This document shows, in pieces, positions 12,371 through 25,830 of a stretch of DNA of 64,000 nt; position 1 is the first letter of the stretch; every line of letters begins with the position of its first letter. This DNA is from Olsenella massiliensis (GTDB lineage: Bacteria > Actinomycetota > Coriobacteriia > Coriobacteriales > Atopobiaceae), in NCBI RefSeq assembly GCF_001457795.1, contig NZ_LN898211.1, positions 565,038-629,037 on the forward strand, in the 5' to 3' direction. Position numbers and translations under genes: made by a program. The notes under the pieces were generated by a model that saw nothing but the letters and a program-made list of their open reading frames with translations, did not search any database and was not told the origin of the DNA.

Positions 12371-13129
12371 TCAGGCCTCGGGGTTGGGCTGGCTGATCTC
12401 CTTTGGCGCCAGCCAGCCCCTAAAGAGGCCTCCCTGAAACAGGGACACGATGACAAAGAACACGTTGGCCATGGGGATGAAAATGAACGACGGGATGAGG
12501 ACGCGGGTGTAGTGGGTCCCGGCATCTGCGCCCGCGCTGACGGCGCGCCCCTGACGTACCAGGAAGAACAGGATGGTCGAGCATAGGGCGAGCAGGATCA
12601 GCATATTTATCGCCGTGTCCGCCAGGACGTCAAGCGGCGTGGAGCCGTCTGGCAGCAGCCGGTTCAGCAGCAGGCTCACGGGAAGCAGGGCAAGCTTGAC
12701 ACACATGAGCACGGCGTTCACGTTGAGCATGACGCCGCCGCCGATGCCCACGCCCCCGCACCAGTCAAGACCGGCTCGCGCGCAGAAGTTCTCGAGCGTT
12801 CGCATGAGGGGCTCGCTCTGCCTGCCCTCGATGAAGCCGTTGTTCGCGATGCAGTAGAGCCGGGGATGAAGGTCGTTAGCCTTGCAGAACGCCTCCGCCT
12901 CCCTGAGAAACTCGAGAACGTGAGAGGGCACGCCGTCCACGTAGAGCGGCATGCTGAGGATGACGGCGTCTGCCTGGCCGAGGTGCTCCAGGACGGCCGG
13001 CAAGTCCCCGTGCCTCCTGAGCGCGAGGCGCCGCACCGTCCCGCGCACGCTCAGGCGTTGGACGCACGCCAGCAGCCCGGAGGCGCTCAGCCGCCTTTTG
13101 GGGCTGCAGCTGACGATGAGGGTCCTCAT
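12371..13129 (-). CDS. Flavodoxin-fold NAD(P)H-dependent oxidoreductase with C-terminal membrane region
   Basis: 252 aa. The N-terminal half is a flavodoxin-like fold: IVSCSPKRRLSASG (phosphate-binding loop), VILSMPLYVDGVPSHVLEFL (FMN-side loop) and LYCIANNGFIEG. The C-terminal 110 residues contain at least two hydrophobic segments (INMLILLALCSTILFFLV, IPSFIFIPMANVFFVIVSLF), so the protein is likely membrane-attached. It overlaps the stop of the upstream flavodoxin gene by 4 nt (ATGA), so the two are coupled. Substrate unknown; related proteins reduce quinones or flavin. Confidence 0.8.
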   Translation of the reverse strand: MRTLIVSCSPKRRLSASGLLACVQRLSVRGTVRRLALRRHGDLPAVLEHLGQADAVILSMPLYVDGVPSHVLEFLREAEAFCKANDLHPRLYCIANNGFIEGRQSEPLMRTLENFCARAGLDWCGGVGIGGGVMLNVNAVLMCVKLALLPVSLLLNRLLPDGSTPLDVLADTAINMLILLALCSTILFFLVRQGRAVSAGADAGTHYTRVLIPSFIFIPMANVFFVIVSLFQGGLFRGWLAPKEISQPNPEA

Positions 13130-13614
13130 AGCGCGCCTCGCAGTTTCGAGAGGTCCTCAAGGAAGGCGACCTCGAACCGCTCGAAGCCTTCGTTGATGGC
13201 GTTGCGCCGGGCAAGTAGCCGGAAGGTCTCGCGCTCCTGTGCGGTGACGTCCCCATAGACGACGACCCTCCACAGGTCGTGGGGCCCGTAGCGCAGGCAG
13301 TGGTGCATCTGGCCCCCGCGATAGCAGCTCAGGGGCGTGGAGCTGCCGATGCTTCGGTCGAGCACCGCCTTGACCTGCGGGCTGTAGCTACCGTAGAGGT
13401 TCTCCGTGATGATGGTGATCCTGTCCGCCTGGCCTATGACGCGGCAGACCATGTGGAGCTTGTCCTTGATGAAGCACGCGGCAGGGTGCTTGGTCCAGCA
13501 GCCAAAGCAGCCCTGACAGCCGGCATATCGGCCGTCCGCCTCAATGACGTGATCGCAGTGGTTCGCGAGCATGGTGCTGTAATGCTTGCCAAGGTCATGC
13601 ACGATGACGTCCAA
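13126..13614 (-). CDS. Flavodoxin-family protein with Cys-rich loop
   Basis: 162 aa from TTG (GGAGG only 4 nt upstream, so the start is uncertain). The pattern CQGCFGCWTKHPAACFIKD followed by ADRITIITENLYGSYSPQVKAVLDR is characteristic of NAD(P)H-dependent FMN reductase/iron-sulfur flavoprotein relatives. The usual N-terminal glycine-rich phosphate loop is largely missing from this frame, so the gene may be shortened or start further upstream. It is the first gene of a two-gene operon with the membrane-anchored flavodoxin-fold protein. Confidence 0.75.
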   Translation of the reverse strand: MDVIVHDLGKHYSTMLANHCDHVIEADGRYAGCQGCFGCWTKHPAACFIKDKLHMVCRVIGQADRITIITENLYGSYSPQVKAVLDRSIGSSTPLSCYRGGQMHHCLRYGPHDLWRVVVYGDVTAQERETFRLLARRNAINEGFERFEVAFLEDLSKLRGAL

Positions 13615-13891
13615 GGACCCTCCAAGACGTTTGGCGTCGGTTCCGCCCGCGCGTCTCGCGGCAAGGCAGACGGGGACGCGCCGAGGCGGGCGGGGCGCAA
13701 AGTTGATGCCTCAGCATAGCGTTCTTTCACCAGGGCAACGTCTTCCTGGTGTAATGGTTCTGTCAAACTGGACGCCAACGGCCCCGCCGAAGCCAACGGC
13801 CTCGACGGCCTCAGCGACACCGCGACCCTGGCGGCGTCGGGCGTCGGCGGTGGGCGTCGGCGTTGCGGTCATGAATCGAGGGCAAGGGGAC

Positions 13892-14483: not shown

Positions 14484-14503
14484 ATCGCCCGGACGACCCC
14501 GCG

Positions 14504-15406
14504 TCATCCCCTCATGGCAAAGATTCTGACGCGCTGCGGCAGGACTCCCAGGTCAATGGGCAGCTCTGGCCCGTCGTCTCCGTCGCGCCCGCACCGCAGG
14601 TTGCCGTCAAGGCATTCGACGCGGATGTTCTTTCCGCTCAGCAGGAGCACCTGGTCGCTCTCCTCGGCAGTTCTCGTCAAGATGCTCGGAAGGAGAGACA
14701 TGAGCGAGGGGAGCGTCGCCTCCTTGAGCACGGCAAGATGAACGAGGCCGTCGCTCTCCCCGGAGCTTTCTTCCGTGGTGATCATGTTGACCATGGTGTT
14801 GACCGAGAAGGCGACAAAGGAGTTGACGTCCTCCACCGAGCGCTCCCCGTCGACGGTGATGCGCAGGCGATGGCTCTCGTCGTCGCCAATGCGCTGAAGC
14901 TCGCTCGTCACATAGGCCAAGAACCCAAAGCGGCTCTTGTCCTCGGAGGAAACGTCGCGGATGCCCTCGGGCAGCGACCCTCCGGTCACCGTGTAGGTAA
15001 AGGGCGTTCCGTTGACGGTGCCGATGTCGATGGGGCGCGTGGACGTGAAGTCCATGGCCTCGATGGCGGACGTCACGTCGGAGGGAATGCCCAGGGTGCG
15101 GGCAAACCCATTGCCCGTGCCGCCGGGAAGGATGCCGAGGACGGGAAGCTCGTCGGCGTCTGCGGCGCCGTCAAGCAAGCCGCGGACCACCAGGCTCACG
15201 GTGCCGTCGCCTCCAAGGGAGAAGACGGCATCAACACCGCTGGTCCGAGCTTCGCGCGCCAGCTCCATGGCGTGCTCGGCACTGGTGCTCAGTTGGGTCG
15301 TCACCTCGTCGAAGTGCTCGCTGAGGAGCTCGCTGACGGTCGAAACCTCTTCCTCGGCATCAGCCTTTCCCGAGCTGGGATTTGCTATGAGAAGCGCCGT
15401 GCTCAT
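14504..15406 (-). CDS. Diacylglycerol/lipid kinase family protein
   Basis: 300 aa, normal for DagK/YegS relatives. Nucleotide-binding signature FSLGGDGTVSLVVRGL and downstream GGTGNGFARTLGIP are diagnostic of the catalytic domain; NPSSGKA near the N-terminus is the usual first motif. It phosphorylates diacylglycerol or a related lipid at the membrane. ATG at 15406 has a perfect AAAGGAGGT, so the 22 codons upstream in the same frame are not used. It is monocistronic and converges on the EIIA gene. Confidence 0.93.
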   Translation of the reverse strand: MSTALLIANPSSGKADAEEEVSTVSELLSEHFDEVTTQLSTSAEHAMELAREARTSGVDAVFSLGGDGTVSLVVRGLLDGAADADELPVLGILPGGTGNGFARTLGIPSDVTSAIEAMDFTSTRPIDIGTVNGTPFTYTVTGGSLPEGIRDVSSEDKSRFGFLAYVTSELQRIGDDESHRLRITVDGERSVEDVNSFVAFSVNTMVNMITTEESSGESDGLVHLAVLKEATLPSLMSLLPSILTRTAEESDQVLLLSGKNIRVECLDGNLRCGRDGDDGPELPIDLGVLPQRVRIFAMRG

Positions 15407-15567
15407 GGGGGACCTCCTTTTTTGGCCTGTCTCATTATGACGCAGCGGCCCGCCGGGGCGGCTGACAGTCAATGTTGAATGCCAAACGCGCGTCAGCCGG
15501 CCAAGAGCGTGGCGGTATGGATGGTCGAGGAGGTATCATTCACTCGCTAGGCGTCGGGCGACGCATA

Positions 15568-15734: not shown

Positions 15735-16013
15735 CTAGTCCTTTTTGCCCTTCTTACCGGACGTATGCGCCTTGCCCTTCTTGCTGGATTTGCCCTTGTC
15801 CTTTTTGTCCTTCTTGCCGTTCGCTTTGCTTCCGCCCTTGGATAAGGCCTGTTCCAGGCACGTTTCCACCTTCTTGGCGCACTTGCCGCATTTGGTGGAG
15901 GCCTTGGTCATCTTCTTGATGTCGTGCATGCTCTGCGCGCCGTCTGCCACGGCATCGATGACGTCCTGCCTTGAGACGTGCCGGCAGGGACAGATGATAT
16001 CTGACTTGGACAT
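15735..16013 (-). CDS. BFD-like [2Fe-2S] protein with Lys-rich tail
   Basis: 92 aa. Residues 1-55 (IICPCRHVSRQDVIDAVADGAQS and TKCGKCAKKV) match the BFD-like [2Fe-2S] fold, with Cys ligands CPC and CGKC. Such domains pass electrons or regulate bacterioferritin and NAD(P)H-dependent enzymes. The last 30 residues are almost only Lys, Gly, Ser and Asp, a highly basic disordered tail that is not part of the fold. It could bind nucleic acid or the membrane surface. ATG at 16013 follows GAGG; the frame is open upstream but without a better start. Confidence 0.75.
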   Translation of the reverse strand: MSKSDIICPCRHVSRQDVIDAVADGAQSMHDIKKMTKASTKCGKCAKKVETCLEQALSKGGSKANGKKDKKDKGKSSKKGKAHTSGKKGKKD

Positions 16014-16216
16014 TCGGGCATCCTCGCTTTCCGCCGTGCCGGCGCGTCGCGGGCTCGCGCAAGCGTGCGGCCCTGACGGTCGAACTGCTTTCATGAGCTC
16101 GACGACACGGCATGGCGCATCGTCGTCGGGCTTGCATATCGTCCGTATACCCGCAAGCGACGATGTCACCATGTCAGGACGGGCTTCTGCCACCCAAGCG
16201 GCCATGACCACTGCTT

Positions 16217-16263
16217 CCAAGCGGCGCATGGCCCGTGCCCCCAAGCGGCGCATGGCCCGTGCC
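16217..16263. repeat. Two 24-bp tandem units
   Basis: CCAAGCGGCGCATGGCCCGT plus GCC occurs at 16217-16239 and 16241-16263, a 24-bp period, with a degenerate third copy starting near 16194 (CCAAGCGGC.CATG). It lies 120 bp before the surface-protein promoter. No gene is supported in 16014-16467. Confidence 0.75.
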
Positions 16264-16379
16264 GCCCGGATGGTTTTTTGACCCTGCCGGTCGCTGGGAC
16301 GACCTTGCCGTTTGGGGCGCCTTCCCTTGGGCGCTGGCCGAATCGTGCGCCACGACAAGGCATTTCCTAGCGGTTTACC

Positions 16380-16408
16380 TTGATTTTCAGGTGGGGGGGG
16401 GTCATACT
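16380..16408 (+). promoter_or_regulatory. Promoter with G9 tract in the spacer
   Basis: -35 TTGATT (16380-16385) and -10 CATACT (16403-16408) are separated by exactly 17 bp. That spacer contains nine consecutive G (16393-16401). The predicted transcript starts about 50 nt before the ATG of the first surface protein. Gain or loss of a G by slipped-strand mispairing would change the spacer to 16 or 18 bp and alter transcription of both surface-protein genes. Confidence 0.6.
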
Positions 16409-16467
16409 TCAATGTATCTGTAGGTAACATAATGTCAGATATCAGACTGCATATCGGTGGGAGACAT

Positions 16468-19400
16468 ATGAAGACGAGCAATGGCGTGCGGCGGTTTGGG
16501 GCCGGACCAATCGGAAACGTGGCCAAAGGCCTGCTAGCTGCCATGCTCGTGCTGTCCCTGTCCAGCCTCCTCGTGCCGGCGCTCGTCTATGGCGAGCAGG
16601 CGGCGAGCCTGGAGGGCGTCGCCGTCCAGCAGGACGACAGTGGGGCGGGCAGTGATTCCGCCAGGGAGGATGTGCTCGCGCCGGGCATCCCGGACGCCTC
16701 GCACAGGGGCGACGACGGGCGTTCGACCCCGGCCGAGGGGAGCGACAAGACCGCCCCTACCGGCGAGTCGTCCGACGCAGGCCCCGATGCCGGCGGGACG
16801 ACCGCCCTTGCGACGGCCCTGACCAACGTGACCTCGCAGGCGCGTGCTCATCGCGCACCGGGCGCGATGAGCACCGTCTTCGTTGACGGGACAAACGGCG
16901 ATGACGCCAACGACGGGTCGTCGTTTGACGGCAGGGCGCTCAAGACGCTCGCGAAGGCGCTCCAGATGCAGGCCGCCAACCCAACCATCACCACGATGTG
17001 CGTCAAGGGCAACATCGCCCTGCCCGCAACGGCCAGCATCCCCTCGGGCGTGACGCTCTCCGTTGCGGCCGACGGCGCGCAGGTCACCGGTAGCGACAAC
17101 AGCGTTGACGGCATCGTCCTCAAGAGCGGCGCCACCCTCACGGGCGCGGGCACGCTCACGATGACCGGCTTCAAGACCGCGCTCACCGCCGAGAGGGGCT
17201 CGACCATCACGGACGGCACCTACGTCCTCAAGGACAACGCAGCCGGCAGCGGCACGCACGGCCTGTTCCTTGCCGGCACCGTCAAGGGTTCCGCGGGCAA
17301 GGACAAGCTCACCATCACGGCGGACGACAAGAGCAACACCAACTTCTACGCGCCTGGCATCACGTTCGAGAACTGCACGATCAACGTGAACTCCCGGGCG
17401 CGCACCTGGTTTGACGCGTTTGACCTCAACCTCAGGAACGCGTCTCTCACGGTCAAAGGCTTTGGCCAGACCTTCTATGTGGGCAAGCTGAACATGGAGG
17501 ACTCCGACCTCACGATCAACCCGTCATTCTACGGTAGGACGGGCATGACCATTCAAGGGGCCTCCAACATCGTCAACTCGCGCATCACGGCCAACGCGGG
17601 CTCCACCGCGGGCATCTCGGTCGGCGTCGAGAACGGCGCCGTCAACGTCACGAACTCCACGCTCGAGTTCACCAACGGCGGCGTGGGCGGTCTCAACGTG
17701 AACACCGGCACGGTCGTCCTCACCAACTCGACCATCAAGGGCGACGGGCGCAACGGCGGCGCCCTCTTTGGGGCGCAGGCAAAGGGTTCGATCGAGTTCA
17801 GGGAAGACTGCCTCGTCGAGACCCCGGCGGCGCGCGACGTCGACAACGGCGCCGGCCAGACGACGAAGAACTTCGTCGTGACGGGAGGCTCGTATCGCGT
17901 CAAGTACGCGCCGAGCTACAACAGCGCCATGGGCAGCACCATCCCCGCCAACGGTGCCGCCAACGGCGACGAGAGGCTCTCGCTGTTCACCCTCGCGGAC
18001 CCGTCCACGGCCGTGCTCAAGCCCCTGAACAAGAGCGGCCAGCCCTACGACTACGCCGTCGCCAGGGCGTCGAGCGACGGCGAGAAGCACGTCTGGGTCC
18101 CCGCCGCCACCGTGACCTTCAAGCTCAATGCGGCCGACGCGACGCAGCAGGTCGCGGCGGCCTATCCCGATGGGTCCACGGCCGACGTGACCGCGCTCGC
18201 GATGCGCGGCTATGCGCTTGAGACGGCCGCGTCCGTCGCGGGAGGCTCCACCAAGGCTCCGGAGGCGCCCGTGGCGGCGGGCTATAAGTTCCGTGGCTGG
18301 TTCTACAAGGACGCGACCGGCGCCGAGCAGCCGTTCTCCGCGAGCACCACGGTCTCTTCTGACATGACGGTCTATGCGACATGGGAGAGCGACGCCTCGT
18401 CCTACGCCGTCAGGTATCACAACGGCGCCGCCACCGACGCGACGTATCTTTCCACGTCGAGCGACCCCGCCCGCACCATCAAGGTGCTCTCCGGGGACGA
18501 CGTTATGAAGGCGTCCCCCTCCTTTGCCGTCGCGGGCAAGGTCTTCAAGGGATGGACCACCCAGCCTGACGGCGCGGGCGACGCCGTCGCCGCGGGCAGC
18601 AGGCTTGCCGTCCCCGCCGGCACCAGCGTCATCGACCTGTATGCCACGTGGGAGGACCGACTGGTCAGCGTCAAGTTCTCCGCAAACGGCGGCGTCTTCT
18701 CCGCCGACAGCGTGTTCAAGAGGAACCCTGCCGTGTTTGACGTCACGACCGACGAGAACGGCGGCGAGGTCGCCGTCGTCAAGAGGCGCCCCAAGGCCAC
18801 CGACAAGACGACCCTCGACGCACTGCTCGCATCCCTGGGCGACGGTTCCGTCTCGGCGAAGACCAAGGGCATCGCCAGCCCTACCGGCACCAACACCGAC
18901 GCCGCCTACACGGGCATCGCGAGCCGCGCGCGACACGTGCTGGGCAACGAGGACGTCGAGCTCATCTTCTTTGGGGTCGTCTACGGGCATGAGTACTACT
19001 ACTGGTTCACGGACGCCGCCGGCTCCTCCAAGGCCAAGATTGACGGGGCCGCCGAGCTGACGCAGGACATGACCTACTACCTCAAGTGGAACGTCGACCC
19101 TGCGATCGAGCATGTCGAGGGCACGACCACGATTCCGAGCGACATGTGGAGCGGCTCCCAGGACAAGACCACGTCCGTCAAGGAAGCCGTCACGGGCGAG
19201 ACCTTCAGCATGACCGGCGCCGTCGATGCCGCGGGCATCGTGAGCCAGATGAACGCGCTTGAGGCCTCCATCGCAGGCGGCCTGGACGACCTCACCAAGA
19301 TCGCCCTCTCTGACACCTCGTCCACCTTCACGGCAACCATCACGCTGCCCGACGGCGTCGTCGTGCCGTCCGATCCCACGGTCACGACGACGGGCCTCGG

Positions 19401-21273
19401 GGACTGCTTTGAGGTCACCGGCACGTCCGTCAACGGCCAGGATGTTACCGTGACCTTTGGCCTGAAGGGCAGCTATGCCAACTACCGGCAGCTCAAGGAC
19501 GCCGTGGAGTCCACCGGCAAGGACGATGCGCCAAGCGAGGTGATTGCCAAGCCGATCACCGTCACCGTCGCGGGTCTCACGCTTGACGCCGACAACGTGA
19601 CCAACGGCCAGGAGCTTGCTGCCACGGGCGTCGTGAGCGGCACGTTCTCCTCGTATGCGGAGAACACCGTCTCGGGCAAGGTCAAGAAGTTCGACTACGC
19701 ATGGAACGGCGAGCAGGTCCAGGGGGGCAAGGATCCCCGGGGCGCGGGCATTCGACAGACGATCCTGGTGGTGAAGCCCGCTCAACAGACGCTTCCCGCC
19801 GACATCCTGGTCGGGGGGGACACCGAGCACGAGAGCGTGTATCCCGTCCTTGCCGGCCAGACCGTCGATTTTACGGGCACCATCGAGGCGTCCGTGGTAA
19901 AGACTCAGATGAGAGGCATAGAGGCCCTGTTCCCCAACACGACCGACTATGCCGGCATCGAGCTCTCGGACATGTCTTCCTCCTTCACGGCCACCTTCAC
20001 CATTCCCGAGGGCATGACCCTGCCCCAGAACCTGACCAAGGACGCCATCAGGACTGACGGCTTTGCCGACACCTTCTCGGTGTCCGGCGTCTCGGTCAGC
20101 GGCAACACCGTCACCGTGACCATGACGCTCAAGGACGGCATAAAGACCTACAAGGACCTTCAGGAGGCCGTCGTCAACAACCTCGGCGACACCATGAAGG
20201 TCACCCTCCCCGGCGTCAAGATCGACGACGACGTCTTGGGAGGAACGACCGCCACCGTCGTGGGTACCGTGAGCGGCAGCTTCAAGGCCCATGCGACGAA
20301 GGTCGCGACGGGCACCACGAAGGTATTCTCCTTCATGTGGGAGGGCGTGCAGACGCCCGAGGGCATGGATGCGACGGCCACGTCGGTCGACGACGGCATT
20401 CGGTTTACGGTCCAGGTTGTCGCGCCCATGGCCTCCACGCTTCCCGGTGACATGCTGGTGGGCGCCAACACCGAGCACGACGCGCCCATTCAGGCCGCCC
20501 AGGGCTCCACGTTTGACCTGACGGGCGCCCTTTTGGCGGCGTCCATCCAAGAGCAGATGAACAACATCGAGGCGGCATATCCCAATGTCAGTCACGACGC
20601 CATCATGCTGGATGCCATGAGGTTCGCGTTCGAGGCCACGTTTACGGTTCCTGACAGCATGACGCTGCCGTCCGACCTTGACGCGAGCAAGGTCATCGCC
20701 GCCGACTTTGGTGACGGCTTCAAGGTGAGTGACGTGCGCGTGAGCGGCAGGACCGTGACGGTCTCCTTTGGCCTGAGCGACCCCGCCTCCATCAAGACCT
20801 ATACGGACCTCGAGAGGGTCGTGGACGCCGCCGGCGCGAACGACGGGTGGATGCGGCTCACGGTGCCCGGCATCAAGATTGACGGCGACGCTCCGGCGGG
20901 GGAGAACCTCACCATGGTCGGCACGGTCAAGGGCTCCTTTGCCGCTGTGGCCACCTCCGCGTCGGGCACGCGCAGGGTGTTCTCGTTTGCCTGGGAGGCC
21001 GTCCAGTGGCCTGACGGCAAGGATGCCGTGGCGAGCGACGACGAGACCATCCAGCTGACCATGAGGGTCACCCAGGCAGAAGGTCCCGGCGACGATCATA
21101 CCGCCGGTGGCAAGGACGCCAGGACGCTGCCGCGGACCAATGACACGACGCTTCCCGTGGCCGTTGTCCTGGGCGTCGCGGCCCTTGGCGCCGCCGTCGT
21201 AGGTTTTGGCATGCGCATGCGGAGCCGCCGCCCGCGTCATGAGGGTTCGCACACGGCACAGGATGAGAGGTAG
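16468..21273 (+). CDS. Large cell-wall-sorted surface protein with beta-helix, InlB-type and three long repeats
   Basis: 1601 aa. ATG at 16468 has GGGAG upstream and starts a signal peptide (about 1-45, hydrophobic LLAAMLVLSLSSLLVPALV). Then an acidic linker, and from about 130-500 a parallel beta-helix-like region with repeated short strands (SGATLTGAGTLTM type). Residues about 549-641 and 645-729 are InlB B-repeats (..GYKFRGWF..; ..KVFKGWTT..DLYATWED), followed by a longer related module to about 875. Three tandem modules of about 215-220 aa (about 880-1101, 1102-1321, 1322-1537) share FTATF/ITLPDG, VTFGL and VFSFAWE motifs. It ends LPRTN (1554-1558), a hydrophobic helix and RMRSRRPR: a sortase signal with N in place of G. 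Probably an adhesin. Confidence 0.9.
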   Translation: MKTSNGVRRFGAGPIGNVAKGLLAAMLVLSLSSLLVPALVYGEQAASLEGVAVQQDDSGAGSDSAREDVLAPGIPDASHRGDDGRSTPAEGSDKTAPTGESSDAGPDAGGTTALATALTNVTSQARAHRAPGAMSTVFVDGTNGDDANDGSSFDGRALKTLAKALQMQAANPTITTMCVKGNIALPATASIPSGVTLSVAADGAQVTGSDNSVDGIVLKSGATLTGAGTLTMTGFKTALTAERGSTITDGTYVLKDNAAGSGTHGLFLAGTVKGSAGKDKLTITADDKSNTNFYAPGITFENCTINVNSRARTWFDAFDLNLRNASLTVKGFGQTFYVGKLNMEDSDLTINPSFYGRTGMTIQGASNIVNSRITANAGSTAGISVGVENGAVNVTNSTLEFTNGGVGGLNVNTGTVVLTNSTIKGDGRNGGALFGAQAKGSIEFREDCLVETPAARDVDNGAGQTTKNFVVTGGSYRVKYAPSYNSAMGSTIPANGAANGDERLSLFTLADPSTAVLKPLNKSGQPYDYAVARASSDGEKHVWVPAATVTFKLNAADATQQVAAAYPDGSTADVTALAMRGYALETAASVAGGSTKAPEAPVAAGYKFRGWFYKDATGAEQPFSASTTVSSDMTVYATWESDASSYAVRYHNGAATDATYLSTSSDPARTIKVLSGDDVMKASPSFAVAGKVFKGWTTQPDGAGDAVAAGSRLAVPAGTSVIDLYATWEDRLVSVKFSANGGVFSADSVFKRNPAVFDVTTDENGGEVAVVKRRPKATDKTTLDALLASLGDGSVSAKTKGIASPTGTNTDAAYTGIASRARHVLGNEDVELIFFGVVYGHEYYYWFTDAAGSSKAKIDGAAELTQDMTYYLKWNVDPAIEHVEGTTTIPSDMWSGSQDKTTSVKEAVTGETFSMTGAVDAAGIVSQMNALEASIAGGLDDLTKIALSDTSSTFTATITLPDGVVVPSDPTVTTTGLGDCFEVTGTSVNGQDVTVTFGLKGSYANYRQLKDAVESTGKDDAPSEVIAKPITVTVAGLTLDADNVTNGQELAATGVVSGTFSSYAENTVSGKVKKFDYAWNGEQVQGGKDPRGAGIRQTILVVKPAQQTLPADILVGGDTEHESVYPVLAGQTVDFTGTIEASVVKTQMRGIEALFPNTTDYAGIELSDMSSSFTATFTIPEGMTLPQNLTKDAIRTDGFADTFSVSGVSVSGNTVTVTMTLKDGIKTYKDLQEAVVNNLGDTMKVTLPGVKIDDDVLGGTTATVVGTVSGSFKAHATKVATGTTKVFSFMWEGVQTPEGMDATATSVDDGIRFTVQVVAPMASTLPGDMLVGANTEHDAPIQAAQGSTFDLTGALLAASIQEQMNNIEAAYPNVSHDAIMLDAMRFAFEATFTVPDSMTLPSDLDASKVIAADFGDGFKVSDVRVSGRTVTVSFGLSDPASIKTYTDLERVVDAAGANDGWMRLTVPGIKIDGDAPAGENLTMVGTVKGSFAAVATSASGTRRVFSFAWEAVQWPDGKDAVASDDETIQLTMRVTQAEGPGDDHTAGGKDARTLPRTNDTTLPVAVVLGVAALGAAVVGFGMRMRSRRPRHEGSHTAQDER

Positions 21274-21276
21274 ACA

Positions 21277-24200
21277 ATGACGACCGCCACCAAACGGCTT
21301 CTGACCGCGCTCCTTGCGATTCTGCTTGCCGCGCAGCTCACCCTCTTCGTCGGCTCTTCCTGGGCGCGCGAGCAGCCTGCGACGTCATCGTCGGTTGAGG
21401 GGCAGACCTCCCCTGAGGAGAGCGGCGATGTTGGCAAGAGTGGCAATGCCGGCACGTCCAAGGATGACGCTGCCAACGCAGCCGCGCCTGCTGCCGACTC
21501 GCCAGCGACGACGTCTGCACCCGAGGCCGCGCCACTTCGCGCCCCTGCGACCCAGCCTGTTATCGAAGGCACGCTCGTCTCAAAGGATGGCAAGACTACC
21601 TACGGATTGCTGTCCGACCCCAAGGCAAGCCTAAGCCTTCCCAAAGGCAGGAAATTCAACCTGCGCGTTCATGCCGTCTTTCCCTCGGCGGGTGACAAGT
21701 CCATCGAGATCGCCCTGCCCTATGGCATGCAGTGGGACACCGACTTTGCCTTTGACAAGACGCTCGGCTGGGTGGGCGAGCTTCAGGCAGACGGCGTCGT
21801 CAAGCCGCATCAACAGACTGATCCTGCCAAGAAGCCGTCCGTTGTGTATGGCAGGAGCTCTGCTGGCACGCTCACCCTGCGTTTTCAGGACACCACGCAG
21901 GAGGTCACCTTTGACCTTCCCATGGGCCTTGCCTTTGACTTCAATCCGGGCCTGGCAAATATCACGGATGCCATCACGCTCACGCAGGCCTACACCACAG
22001 CGGGCCAGGCTCCCACCACGCAGAAGGTGGGTGCCGACCTGTCCGTGACGCATCTGCCTGGGCTGGGAGATATTCGCTTTGCCAAAAATTACAGCAATCT
22101 CCTTAACGCCAACGGCACCCTGGAGGTGGGCGCTGACGACCCCCAGGGCACAGGCCATGACATCGCCTGGATCGCGGGCCTTGGACCGCAGTACACCACC
22201 CCCTACGAGGCGCAGATGCTTGAGGACTACTACCTGGCCATGCTCGCGCCCGAGAAGGCCGAGTACCTGGGTCGCTACTCTCCTGATGGCAACAACGGCG
22301 TAAAGGAGAAGGACCTCAAGGTGTATGGTCCCGGGGAGCAGTTCACGCTCAGCACGGGCACTATCTACACCGTGCCGGCCGGCAAGAAGCTCTACGTATG
22401 GCGACGCACGAATGCAGCTACCGTTCCCATCACCGGCCATGAGACGGCCTTCAACCCCATGTGGCGCTTTCCTGTGGCCGACTTTCCGGTGGGAAGCGTG
22501 GTCGAGATCAGCCAGATTGACGTGGGCGCCAAGTTCTACAGCCCTTCCGGCACGAGCGCCTACCTACCCTATGACGCCTCCAAGCTCAAGACCATGCGCT
22601 ATGAGATTGCTGAGCCCAAAGAGGACGTGTACGTCAACACCACCATGTACAAGCAGAACGCCAATGACACGGACTGGCCGCTGTGGGAGGGCTACATAGC
22701 CGACAACGAGGTCTATCTGGGCGCTCCCGGCTACGAGCACACGCAGAATCGCACGCTTGGCTACTTTACCCTGGGCAATCGCGGCACCGGCGACAGCAAG
22801 CCCAAGACCATCATCATCGACTACGACGTCAACGACACCAAGATCGCGGGCGTCACGGCTCAGGCGCTGCCCTTCATCTCAAAGGAAAAGCCGGACGGTA
22901 CCCAGCCCACCCAGGTGAGCGACTTTACGGTGACGTTCTGGAACAGCAAGACGGGTGAGACCTTCACCCGCACGGTGGATAATCCCAAACAGCGCTTTAT
23001 CGTGGATGACGTGCTGGGCAAACATACCGAGGATATCTACATCAAGCATATCGAGTACAAGATTAACACCATACCCGCTAAGACCAAGTTCACCTGCTAC
23101 GAGAATAGTACCGAGAACGGTGGATACGAGGGCACGAGCGAAAGTGCCAGCTTTCCCTTCCATGGCCGCGTGCTCACCAATGAGGTGCGCGAGAAAGGCA
23201 AGTGGGGAGATGACCCCACGCTCTTCAAGACGCGCATCCGCATTGAGAACACGGGCGAGGAGGAGCCCACCTGGAACTATCGCAACCAGGAAAAGTGGGA
23301 CTTCAACGACGGCCAGGGCGAGGTGCTCCTGAAGTACCCCGGTCGCTCCTATGACCACGTGACCATCGGCGACACCTTCACGGCCTTTACGGGCAAGAGC
23401 TTCATCCAGGGCCATGGTCCGGTGTTTGCCTGGCATGAGGGCAACCCCATGGTCTTCACGGTTGGTGACACTGTCAAGAACTCGCTGTTTTCCTATTTTG
23501 ATCCGAGGTGGGACGGCAGCGCCCAGGGCCAGCAGACCTACAAGGCCATCTACTACGTGAGCCCCCTTGGTGACGACCTGAGCTTTCAGATGACGTATCG
23601 CTCAGTCTATGGCTCAAAGGACGCCTGGAACAAGGACGGCGCTGCAGGCGAGCAGATTAGTTCCAAGCAACCAAACGTGTACGAGGTACCCGCCTCGGAC
23701 GCCCTCAAGGCCACCTATCCCAACGCCAAGGTGTACAAGCTTGATTTTTCTGGCTTCACGTCCAAACAAGACATCTATGACACACGTGCGACGGGCCCCT
23801 TGGTGGCATGGCGCGAAGAGGCCGATCTGACACCCTACGCTATTATCGATACGTATTGGGCGTATTCTGCTCCAGCCACGGTGCGAGTGAGCTTTGCGTC
23901 CGACCCCGAGAAGGACGTGCCGGGCGAGTATTCCCAGCTCATGTGGTATGAGTACGACACGGACACCACCGAGGACCTGGTGTATAGCAAAGACGGCTTT
24001 GCCAAGGACAAGTGGGACCTCAACGGCAACGGCAGCACGGACGACCTTCTGGGTGCGCCCATGGGCAACTGGATAATTAAGGAGCCCACGGATCTGGTGG
24101 TGACGTCGGCCGCCAAGATGGCCACCCAGCCCGATTCGCAATACATCACCTACGACGGCGTTGCCAAGACGGGCATTGGCGCCAACAGCACGGTGGACTA

Positions 24201-25830
24201 TCGCCTAATTGCAAATAATCCCACGAGCAGCGATGCCAACGGCTTCAAGGTGTATTGGCCCGTGCCCAAGAAGGGTCAGGACTGGGGTAAGGCCATCCAG
24301 CCCAAGGGAGCGTTCCAGTTTGACCTCTTTTTGAATGGTGGCATCAAGAGCGAGCTGCCAGCGGGCTATAAGGTCTTTTATGCCAAGGACGCTACGCCCA
24401 CGAGCCAGGCGCTTGACTGGGACGGCTTCGCCTGGACCGAGGAGGCCGATACCGCCTCTTGGACGCAGAAGGACTGGGATGCCGTGAACTTTGTGCGCAT
24501 CGAGTCTCCGGCAGACAGTGTCTTTGCGGCCAAGCAGCGCGAGCAGTTCAAGTTCAACCTCACCTTGCGCGACGTTCCCAAGGAGGACTTCGAGAAGAGC
24601 CTCCTGGATGTCTATACGCCCATCTACCTGCGCGATTTGGGATCGGGCAAGGGATATCGCTATGGTCAGCCCGTTGCCATGACGCCGCTTCCAGGCGTGC
24701 TGGCAGGCACCGCCTGGGTGGACGCCGACTACGACGGGCAGATGGACGCCGCGGAGGCATCCAACGTGATTGCCGGCGTGCGCGTGGAGCTTCTTGACGC
24801 GCGGGGTAAGGTCGTTGACACGGCGACCACGGATGCCCAGGGCCACTACGAGTTCAAGGGACTCAAGGACTGGGCGGCAAGCGTTGGCGGTGCACTTGAT
24901 GCCTATACCGTTAAGGCATACAACCCGACCGACCCCACGTCAGCGTCTGCTGACCGCTTCGTGCGCTTCTCGCCCGTGGGAGAGAGCATGGTCATGACGG
25001 CCGCAAGCGACCAGACGTCCGCCTTGGTTGCTGGCGTGAGCGTCAATTCCTCCAATGCACGCGCACTTAACGTAGGTCTCACGCGCGTCACCAAGATAGA
25101 CGTAAGCAAGCTCTGGGTTGAGGGTAAAAATGCCGACGGCTCCGACGGGCAAGATATGCGCCACGACGCAATCAGTGTGAAGCTTCTTGCTGACGGTGGC
25201 GCCGCCAAAGACATCGACGGCAAGGACATCGCGGCGCTCAGCCTTGCGCCCGACTCAGCGACGCCGTGGAAGGGCAGCTTTGACAATCTTCTCGTGAACA
25301 ATCCCGCGACGAGCAAGGTTGCGCGCTATACCGTGGAAGAGGGCTCGGTTCCCACGGGGTACGTGACGTCGTACGCGTACGAGACCAAGGATGGCCACCT
25401 CGTGGCAACCATCACCAACACGCGCATCCACGGCACCATCAAGGTGACCAAGGTGGACGCCGCCGATGGCAACAAACTGCTGGCAGGTGCGACGTTCCAG
25501 CTCAGGCAGGATGACGCCGTTGTGCGTGAGGCTGTGACGGACGCGAACGGAAAAGTCGAGTTTGCTGACGTTCCCTATGGCGACTACGAGGTCGTGGAGA
25601 CGGCGGCGCCGGAGGGCTATGAGCTTGACCCCGCCCCGGTGCAGGTCCAGATTCGCGAGGACGGCAAGGCGGTGGAGCTGACCGTCAAGGACAGCGCCAA
25701 GCCGTCGTCTGCGGCGACCCCCCAGACGGGAGACGCCGCCCGGGGGCTAACGGGCCTCGTTGCCTCGGGCGCGCTCGTGCTGGCGGCGGGTCTGGTCTTC
25801 CGCCTGCGCCGCACGGGCCGTCAGGGATAG
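21277..25830 (+). CDS. Large surface protein with SdrD-B, Cna-B and SpaA-type domains
   Basis: 1517 aa, beginning 3 nt after the first surface-protein gene, with GAGAGGT before the ATG; same operon. Signal peptide 1-31 (LLTALLAILLAAQLTLFVGSS), then an Ala/Ser/Pro-rich linker. The next thousand residues are an extracellular region I do not recognise, rich in Tyr/Asp/Thr. Residues about 1141-1225 resemble an SdrD B-like module (AGTAWVDADYDGQMD; TDAQGHYEFKGL). About 1272-1382 is Cna-B-like. About 1387-1475 is a prealbumin-like SpaA domain (GTIKVTKVDAADGNKLLAGATFQL; YGDYEVVETAAPEGY). It ends TPQTGD (1481-1486), a hydrophobic helix and RLRRTGR: a sorting signal with T for the usual L. Probably an adhesin or pilin-like protein. 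Confidence 0.9.
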   Translation: MTTATKRLLTALLAILLAAQLTLFVGSSWAREQPATSSSVEGQTSPEESGDVGKSGNAGTSKDDAANAAAPAADSPATTSAPEAAPLRAPATQPVIEGTLVSKDGKTTYGLLSDPKASLSLPKGRKFNLRVHAVFPSAGDKSIEIALPYGMQWDTDFAFDKTLGWVGELQADGVVKPHQQTDPAKKPSVVYGRSSAGTLTLRFQDTTQEVTFDLPMGLAFDFNPGLANITDAITLTQAYTTAGQAPTTQKVGADLSVTHLPGLGDIRFAKNYSNLLNANGTLEVGADDPQGTGHDIAWIAGLGPQYTTPYEAQMLEDYYLAMLAPEKAEYLGRYSPDGNNGVKEKDLKVYGPGEQFTLSTGTIYTVPAGKKLYVWRRTNAATVPITGHETAFNPMWRFPVADFPVGSVVEISQIDVGAKFYSPSGTSAYLPYDASKLKTMRYEIAEPKEDVYVNTTMYKQNANDTDWPLWEGYIADNEVYLGAPGYEHTQNRTLGYFTLGNRGTGDSKPKTIIIDYDVNDTKIAGVTAQALPFISKEKPDGTQPTQVSDFTVTFWNSKTGETFTRTVDNPKQRFIVDDVLGKHTEDIYIKHIEYKINTIPAKTKFTCYENSTENGGYEGTSESASFPFHGRVLTNEVREKGKWGDDPTLFKTRIRIENTGEEEPTWNYRNQEKWDFNDGQGEVLLKYPGRSYDHVTIGDTFTAFTGKSFIQGHGPVFAWHEGNPMVFTVGDTVKNSLFSYFDPRWDGSAQGQQTYKAIYYVSPLGDDLSFQMTYRSVYGSKDAWNKDGAAGEQISSKQPNVYEVPASDALKATYPNAKVYKLDFSGFTSKQDIYDTRATGPLVAWREEADLTPYAIIDTYWAYSAPATVRVSFASDPEKDVPGEYSQLMWYEYDTDTTEDLVYSKDGFAKDKWDLNGNGSTDDLLGAPMGNWIIKEPTDLVVTSAAKMATQPDSQYITYDGVAKTGIGANSTVDYRLIANNPTSSDANGFKVYWPVPKKGQDWGKAIQPKGAFQFDLFLNGGIKSELPAGYKVFYAKDATPTSQALDWDGFAWTEEADTASWTQKDWDAVNFVRIESPADSVFAAKQREQFKFNLTLRDVPKEDFEKSLLDVYTPIYLRDLGSGKGYRYGQPVAMTPLPGVLAGTAWVDADYDGQMDAAEASNVIAGVRVELLDARGKVVDTATTDAQGHYEFKGLKDWAASVGGALDAYTVKAYNPTDPTSASADRFVRFSPVGESMVMTAASDQTSALVAGVSVNSSNARALNVGLTRVTKIDVSKLWVEGKNADGSDGQDMRHDAISVKLLADGGAAKDIDGKDIAALSLAPDSATPWKGSFDNLLVNNPATSKVARYTVEEGSVPTGYVTSYAYETKDGHLVATITNTRIHGTIKVTKVDAADGNKLLAGATFQLRQDDAVVREAVTDANGKVEFADVPYGDYEVVETAAPEGYELDPAPVQVQIREDGKAVELTVKDSAKPSSAATPQTGDAARGLTGLVASGALVLAAGLVFRLRRTGRQG

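Follow-up and report, generated by a model that had tools for sequence, protein, structure and literature searches.

A putative phase-variable promoter with a G9 tract in its spacer, upstream of two large surface-protein genes of Olsenella massiliensis, and similar tracts across the Coriobacteriales

The porA promoter of Neisseria meningitidis contains a poly-G tract between its −35 and −10 elements, and gain or loss of one G alters transcription; in Haemophilus influenzae, TA repeats are found in the promoter spacer of hifA/hifB (PMC3899988). For the sortase-pilus genes of Bifidobacterium breve, poly-G slippage has been described in coding tracts (PMC9187656). For Gardnerella, G/C tracts of at least 8 have been described in the 300 bp ahead of surface genes, LPXTG genes among them, and there is evidence that they vary (PMC11287997). 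For Eggerthella lenta there is a preprint on capsule inversion (PMC13174815). Surface variation in the Coriobacteriia is little studied, and no report of slippage in this class was found in the literature searched, which left subscription journals largely uncovered. The Coriobacteriales are a major gut and oral lineage.

We analysed a stretch of 64,000 nucleotides from Olsenella massiliensis (the window), in which a first-pass annotation had placed a G9 tract in half of a 17-bp −35/−10 spacer ahead of two giant surface proteins, here called p1 and p2. The sequence agrees with this description: the homopolymer lies wholly inside the spacer and makes up 9 of its 17 bp (Table 1). From the evidence presented below, positions 16380–16408 very probably constitute a sigma-70-type, porA-type phase-variable promoter with a slip-prone G9 spacer that co-regulates p1 and p2.

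Table 1 Features of the proposed promoter and the genes on either side of it (positions in the window)
Feature	Position	Strand	Basis or remark
Small BFD-like [2Fe-2S] protein gene, divergent	15754–16013	−	Start read from sequence; other flank of the intergenic region
Tandem repeat, 24 bp × 3.2	16188–16263	+	Upstream of the promoter
−35 hexamer TTGATT	16380–16385	+	Sequence, weight-matrix scan; 6/6 kept in the orthologous promoter of G206
17-bp spacer TTCAGGT-GGGGGGGGG-T	16386–16402	+	Length kept in G206; 7/17 positions identical
G9 homopolymer, proposed slip-prone tract	16393–16401	+	Architecture also found across the order
−10 hexamer CATACT	16403–16408	+	Sequence, weight-matrix scan; 6/6 kept in G206
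Initial transcribed region TCAATGTATCTGTAGGTA	16409–16426	+	Largely kept in G206 as TCTATGTATTTGTAGGTA
Shine-Dalgarno sequence GGGAG	16459–16463	+	By inspection; precedes the likely start ATG 16468
p1, secreted surface protein	16468–21273	+	ORF of 1613 aa when counted from 16432; N-terminal region of parallel beta-helix type, Flg_new repeat, anchor-like C-terminal end of LPRTN type
p2, secreted adhesin- or pilin-like protein	21277–25830	+	1517 aa; SpaA/Cna_B/SdrD_B, TPQTG-type C-terminal end

The two hexamers together match the sigma-70 consensus at 8 of 12 positions (4/6 in each box), which is why the pair was absent from a promoter scan of the window at 9/12. With a weight matrix, TTGATT-17-CATACT was the top pair in the intergenic region 16014–16470, and just eight sites on the plus strand of the 64 kb reached such a score; this matrix was our own, a simple one derived from approximate E. 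coli frequencies. A transcript start near 16415 is predicted. An Rfam search gave no match to a leader RNA element. Assignment of the G run to an antisense 269-aa ORF was tried and rejected: the BFD domain is far from the tract, and the internal ATG at 16013 is a better fit.

The start of p1 is more likely ATG 16468 than the listed ATG 16432, because the former is preceded by GGGAG and the latter lacks a Shine-Dalgarno sequence; the leader would then be about 53 nt long. Only 3 bp separate the p1 stop from the p2 start, and no promoter-like site was found between the two genes. Several features point to surface-exposed products. Each of the two carries a signal peptide and ends in an anchor-like C-terminus, in which the motif (LPRTN in p1, TPQTG in p2) is followed by a hydrophobic segment and a basic tail; the Gram_pos_anchor model listed neither gene. 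The p2 protein has SpaA/Cna_B domains, and its SpaA part matches collagen adhesins. The N-terminal region of p1 has a confidently predicted fold (pLDDT 91) with a beta-helix-like strand repeat. A sequence search found no relatives of p1 among solved structures, and comparison of the predicted fold with known structures gave weak parallel beta-helix matches, the best being to a GH136 lacto-N-biosidase (E 3e-3). Because these matches are only weak, we claim no activity for p1.

An orthologous promoter was found in a genome of another genus of the same family (G206), at a syntenic locus with 84–89% blastn identity on either side of the p1 gap; the aligned window segments were 13002–13774, 14498–15422, and 21164–25630. 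The G206 promoter is TTGATT-TTTAGCAGGAAAAAGAC-CATACT, in which 12 of 12 hexamer positions are identical and the spacer length, 17 bp, is exactly the same. The spacer has no G tract and shares 7 of its 17 positions with that of the window; the stretch downstream of the −10 hexamer is also kept (TCNATGTATNTGTAGGTA). Because the hexamers and the 17-bp length are kept and the spacer sequence is not, the boxes and the length are constrained and the content is free. This comparison supports the promoter assignment, as the first-pass annotation had it, and on it the G tract is lineage-specific spacer content, which G206 has lost or never had. The promoter regions of most p1 homologs were too divergent to align. 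G206 retains no more than the last codons of p1, next to an intact p2 (92% identity across the 710 residues searched); p2 was found beside p1 only in the O. massiliensis genome and, as this relic, in G206. With almost all of p1 deleted there, p2 immediately follows this promoter, which fits a single operon. Taken with the 3-bp gap and the absence of a promoter-like site between p1 and p2, the deletion strengthens the earlier proposal that both proteins switch together.

The same comparison bears on the idea that the tract is phase variable by a route other than spacing, through a second promoter downstream of it (for example one with CATAAT near 16427–16433 as −10) or the binding of a regulator. 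CATAAT is a good −10 hexamer, and in another genome of the order (G025) those G/C tracts that have a fair promoter match lie 4–10 bp upstream of the best −35. However, the weight matrix found no −35 of similar score to pair with CATAAT, and the corresponding sequence in G206 is CCTTAAC, whereas TTGATT and CATACT are kept there. We consider this route highly improbable.

The length of the G run is not, by itself, improbable for this base composition: about 4 GGGGGGGG matches were expected from dinucleotide shuffles of the window, and 2 were observed. When the shuffles were extrapolated to the whole genome (1.82 Mb), approximately 110 GGGGGGGG matches were expected, versus 17 real ones, which lie in just 7 G/C tracts of at least 8. 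Because there are only seven such tracts in the genome, the ones that persist merit attention; the notable feature of the G9 is its place, and the case for it rests on position and comparison. An unlikely alternative to slippage is that the promoter is real and the G9 a neutral, stable spacer, with no phase variation in O. massiliensis. The G8–G9 runs expected in the shuffles would fit this alternative, as would the G206 promoter, which by inference works with a non-G spacer. It leaves unexplained that, with 7 tracts of at least 8 in 1.82 Mb, one is nevertheless inside the spacer of a surface-protein promoter, and it must also contend with the order-wide results below, where the arrangement is about 10-fold over control and linked to surface genes and where relatives differ by one base in tract length.

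Assembly consensus can miscount homopolymers, and the exact count of nine might be an assembly or base-calling artefact, given that homopolymer lengths are error-prone and that the genome is assembled in 13 contigs. An off-by-one count, however, would remove neither the tract nor its location between boxes that are conserved, and nine Gs yield a spacer of 17 bp, equal to that in G206. We therefore attach very little probability to a miscount.

Other tracts in this genome were also noted. The longest is a C16 at G000:C13:750631-750646 (L012 6632-6647), in a low-complexity stretch within a large Ig-like secreted protein whose frame is broken nearby; it is a candidate for either a second switch or an assembly problem. 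A second G9, at G000:C13:898311-898319 (L014 4112-4120), lies within an intact acyltransferase (PF01757) gene adjoining glycosyltransferase-like genes, where it might act as a coding switch in the acylation of surface polysaccharide. A G8 tract occurs in a short degenerate fragment (G000:C12:40078-40299, L011) that is about 80% identical to p1 residues 201–274.

The first-pass annotation had read the locus as a phase-variable switch, and the recurrence of the architecture across the order favours that reading. In 397 genomes of the order, the pattern TTGAN{2,12}G9N{0,8}YANNNT gave about 160 matches, versus 16 for the reversed control, with totals summed by hand and overlapping ends counted repeatedly in pattern and control alike. 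In 358 genomes of the phylum outside the class, there were 12 matches, versus 6 for the control, and the C version of the pattern showed a weaker excess than the G version. Among the 130 promoters listed, the positions left free by the pattern follow the TTGACA and TATAAT consensus: C was found at −35 position 5 in 59%, A at −35 position 6 in 54%, and T at −10 position 3 in 52%. The spacer was 16–19 bp long in 63% of them. A negative correlation between the length of the G run and the remaining spacer was dropped as evidence because the search pattern itself generates it. By a crude call for secretion signals, 26 of 56 promoters were followed by an ORF with a signal-like start, versus 35 of 360 background ORFs (Fisher p 3e-10). 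One genome has six tandem LPxTG-like genes, each with its own poly-G spacer promoter of G10 or G11 (G356:C70; L181, L182). Among these six paralogs, and between the sister species of three pairs (G370/G125, G227/G255, and G223/G080), tract lengths differed by one G with flanks identical or nearly so.

Among the homologs of p1 and of p2, G/C tracts occur at further switch points, which likewise favours phase variation. Two p1 homologs have a tract in the 5′ coding region (C7 in G182, C9 in G295) beyond which the body no longer shares the reading frame of the signal peptide, and the p2 homolog in G219 has its frame split exactly at a G9; these are the three cases of a coding tract with a broken frame among the p1/p2 relatives. 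A fourth homolog, of p1 in G025, has a C9 four bases upstream of its −35. In that genome (single contig, 1.6 Mb; L075, L098, L099, L100, L102), each of the six G/C tracts of at least 9 lies at the 5′ end of a sortase-type surface gene, 4–145 nt upstream; these LPxTG-like genes include collagen-binding and antigen I/II-like adhesins. Its promoter tracts are mostly outside the spacer; therefore, where a tract lies is not enough to define the mechanism. Of the 35 p1 homologs, about 30 lack a tract, as does G206, and thus the switch would be lineage-specific. Sequence comparison shows the tract itself, the conserved promoter boxes, the arrangement of the two genes as an operon, and the recurrence with length differences in relatives.

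Tracts were also seen in other surface genes. Several species (L176-L180 and further g48 genomes) have a conserved G9, TTGAGGAACCCCCCCCCATCACAGT when read on the opposite strand, that comes in frame directly behind the signal-peptide sequence of a large surface protein. Genome G021 has about thirteen G/C tracts of 8–10, most of them at the 5′ end of a gene for a giant secreted protein, in coding as well as promoter positions (L111-L120).

We infer slippage in O. massiliensis, its rate, and its effect on transcription as follows. Gain or loss of a G at replication would produce a spacer of 16 bp (G8), 17 bp (G9), or 18 bp (G10), and of 15 or 19 bp further out, and such changes would alter how strongly the p1-p2 operon is transcribed. 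One-base steps would weaken the promoter, and larger steps would lower expression further. In a mixed population, the two large surface proteins would rise and fall together. Because G9 gives a 17-bp spacer, the promoter as assembled is expected to be on, with expression at its maximum or close to it. A run of nine is close to the lower limit of lengths prone to slippage. The first-pass annotation had called this a classic on/off switch. Its reading of a length switch is supported, and on/off is perhaps too strong: since one-base changes give 16- or 18-bp spacers, graded expression is likelier near G9.

This kind of switch is known elsewhere; its order-wide extent appears to be new, and the set of spacer tracts across the order is a more interesting result than the single promoter. 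The Coriobacteriales probably contain an undescribed set of phase-variable surface genes, in which spacer, upstream-of-−35, and coding tracts act together on shared families of adhesins. If so, slippage would generate combinations of surface proteins, including those encoded by tandem arrays such as the six G356 genes, and strain comparisons and adhesion assays in Coriobacteriia may measure switch states rather than gene content. Since deep sequencing can reveal the state of such a spacer-tract switch, metagenomes already sequenced could tell whether tract lengths are under selection by host, site, or phage pressure.

Compared with the known systems, the locus resembles the Gardnerella tracts in belonging to the Actinomycetota and in lying upstream of surface-protein genes; Gardnerella is of another class, and the available part of its account does not place the tracts in promoter spacers. 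With B. breve it shares the phylum, the poly-G tract, and surface proteins as targets, which are sortase-dependent in B. breve and have anchor-like C-termini here. The B. breve tract is in coding sequence and shifts the frame, whereas that of the window is intergenic and in a promoter; the coding version is found in the p1/p2 relatives of G182, G295, and G219. As in hifA/hifB, a change in spacer length would switch adhesive structures, with more than one gene controlled together, but hifA/hifB has dinucleotide repeats and divergent promoters, and the window has a mononucleotide tract and a single operon. Unlike porA, the window has a two-gene operon of giant anchored-type proteins in a high-GC Gram-positive lineage, and no sequence homology to porA is claimed. 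Like porA, it has a poly-G tract within the spacer of a surface-protein promoter, where one-base changes would alter the spacing.
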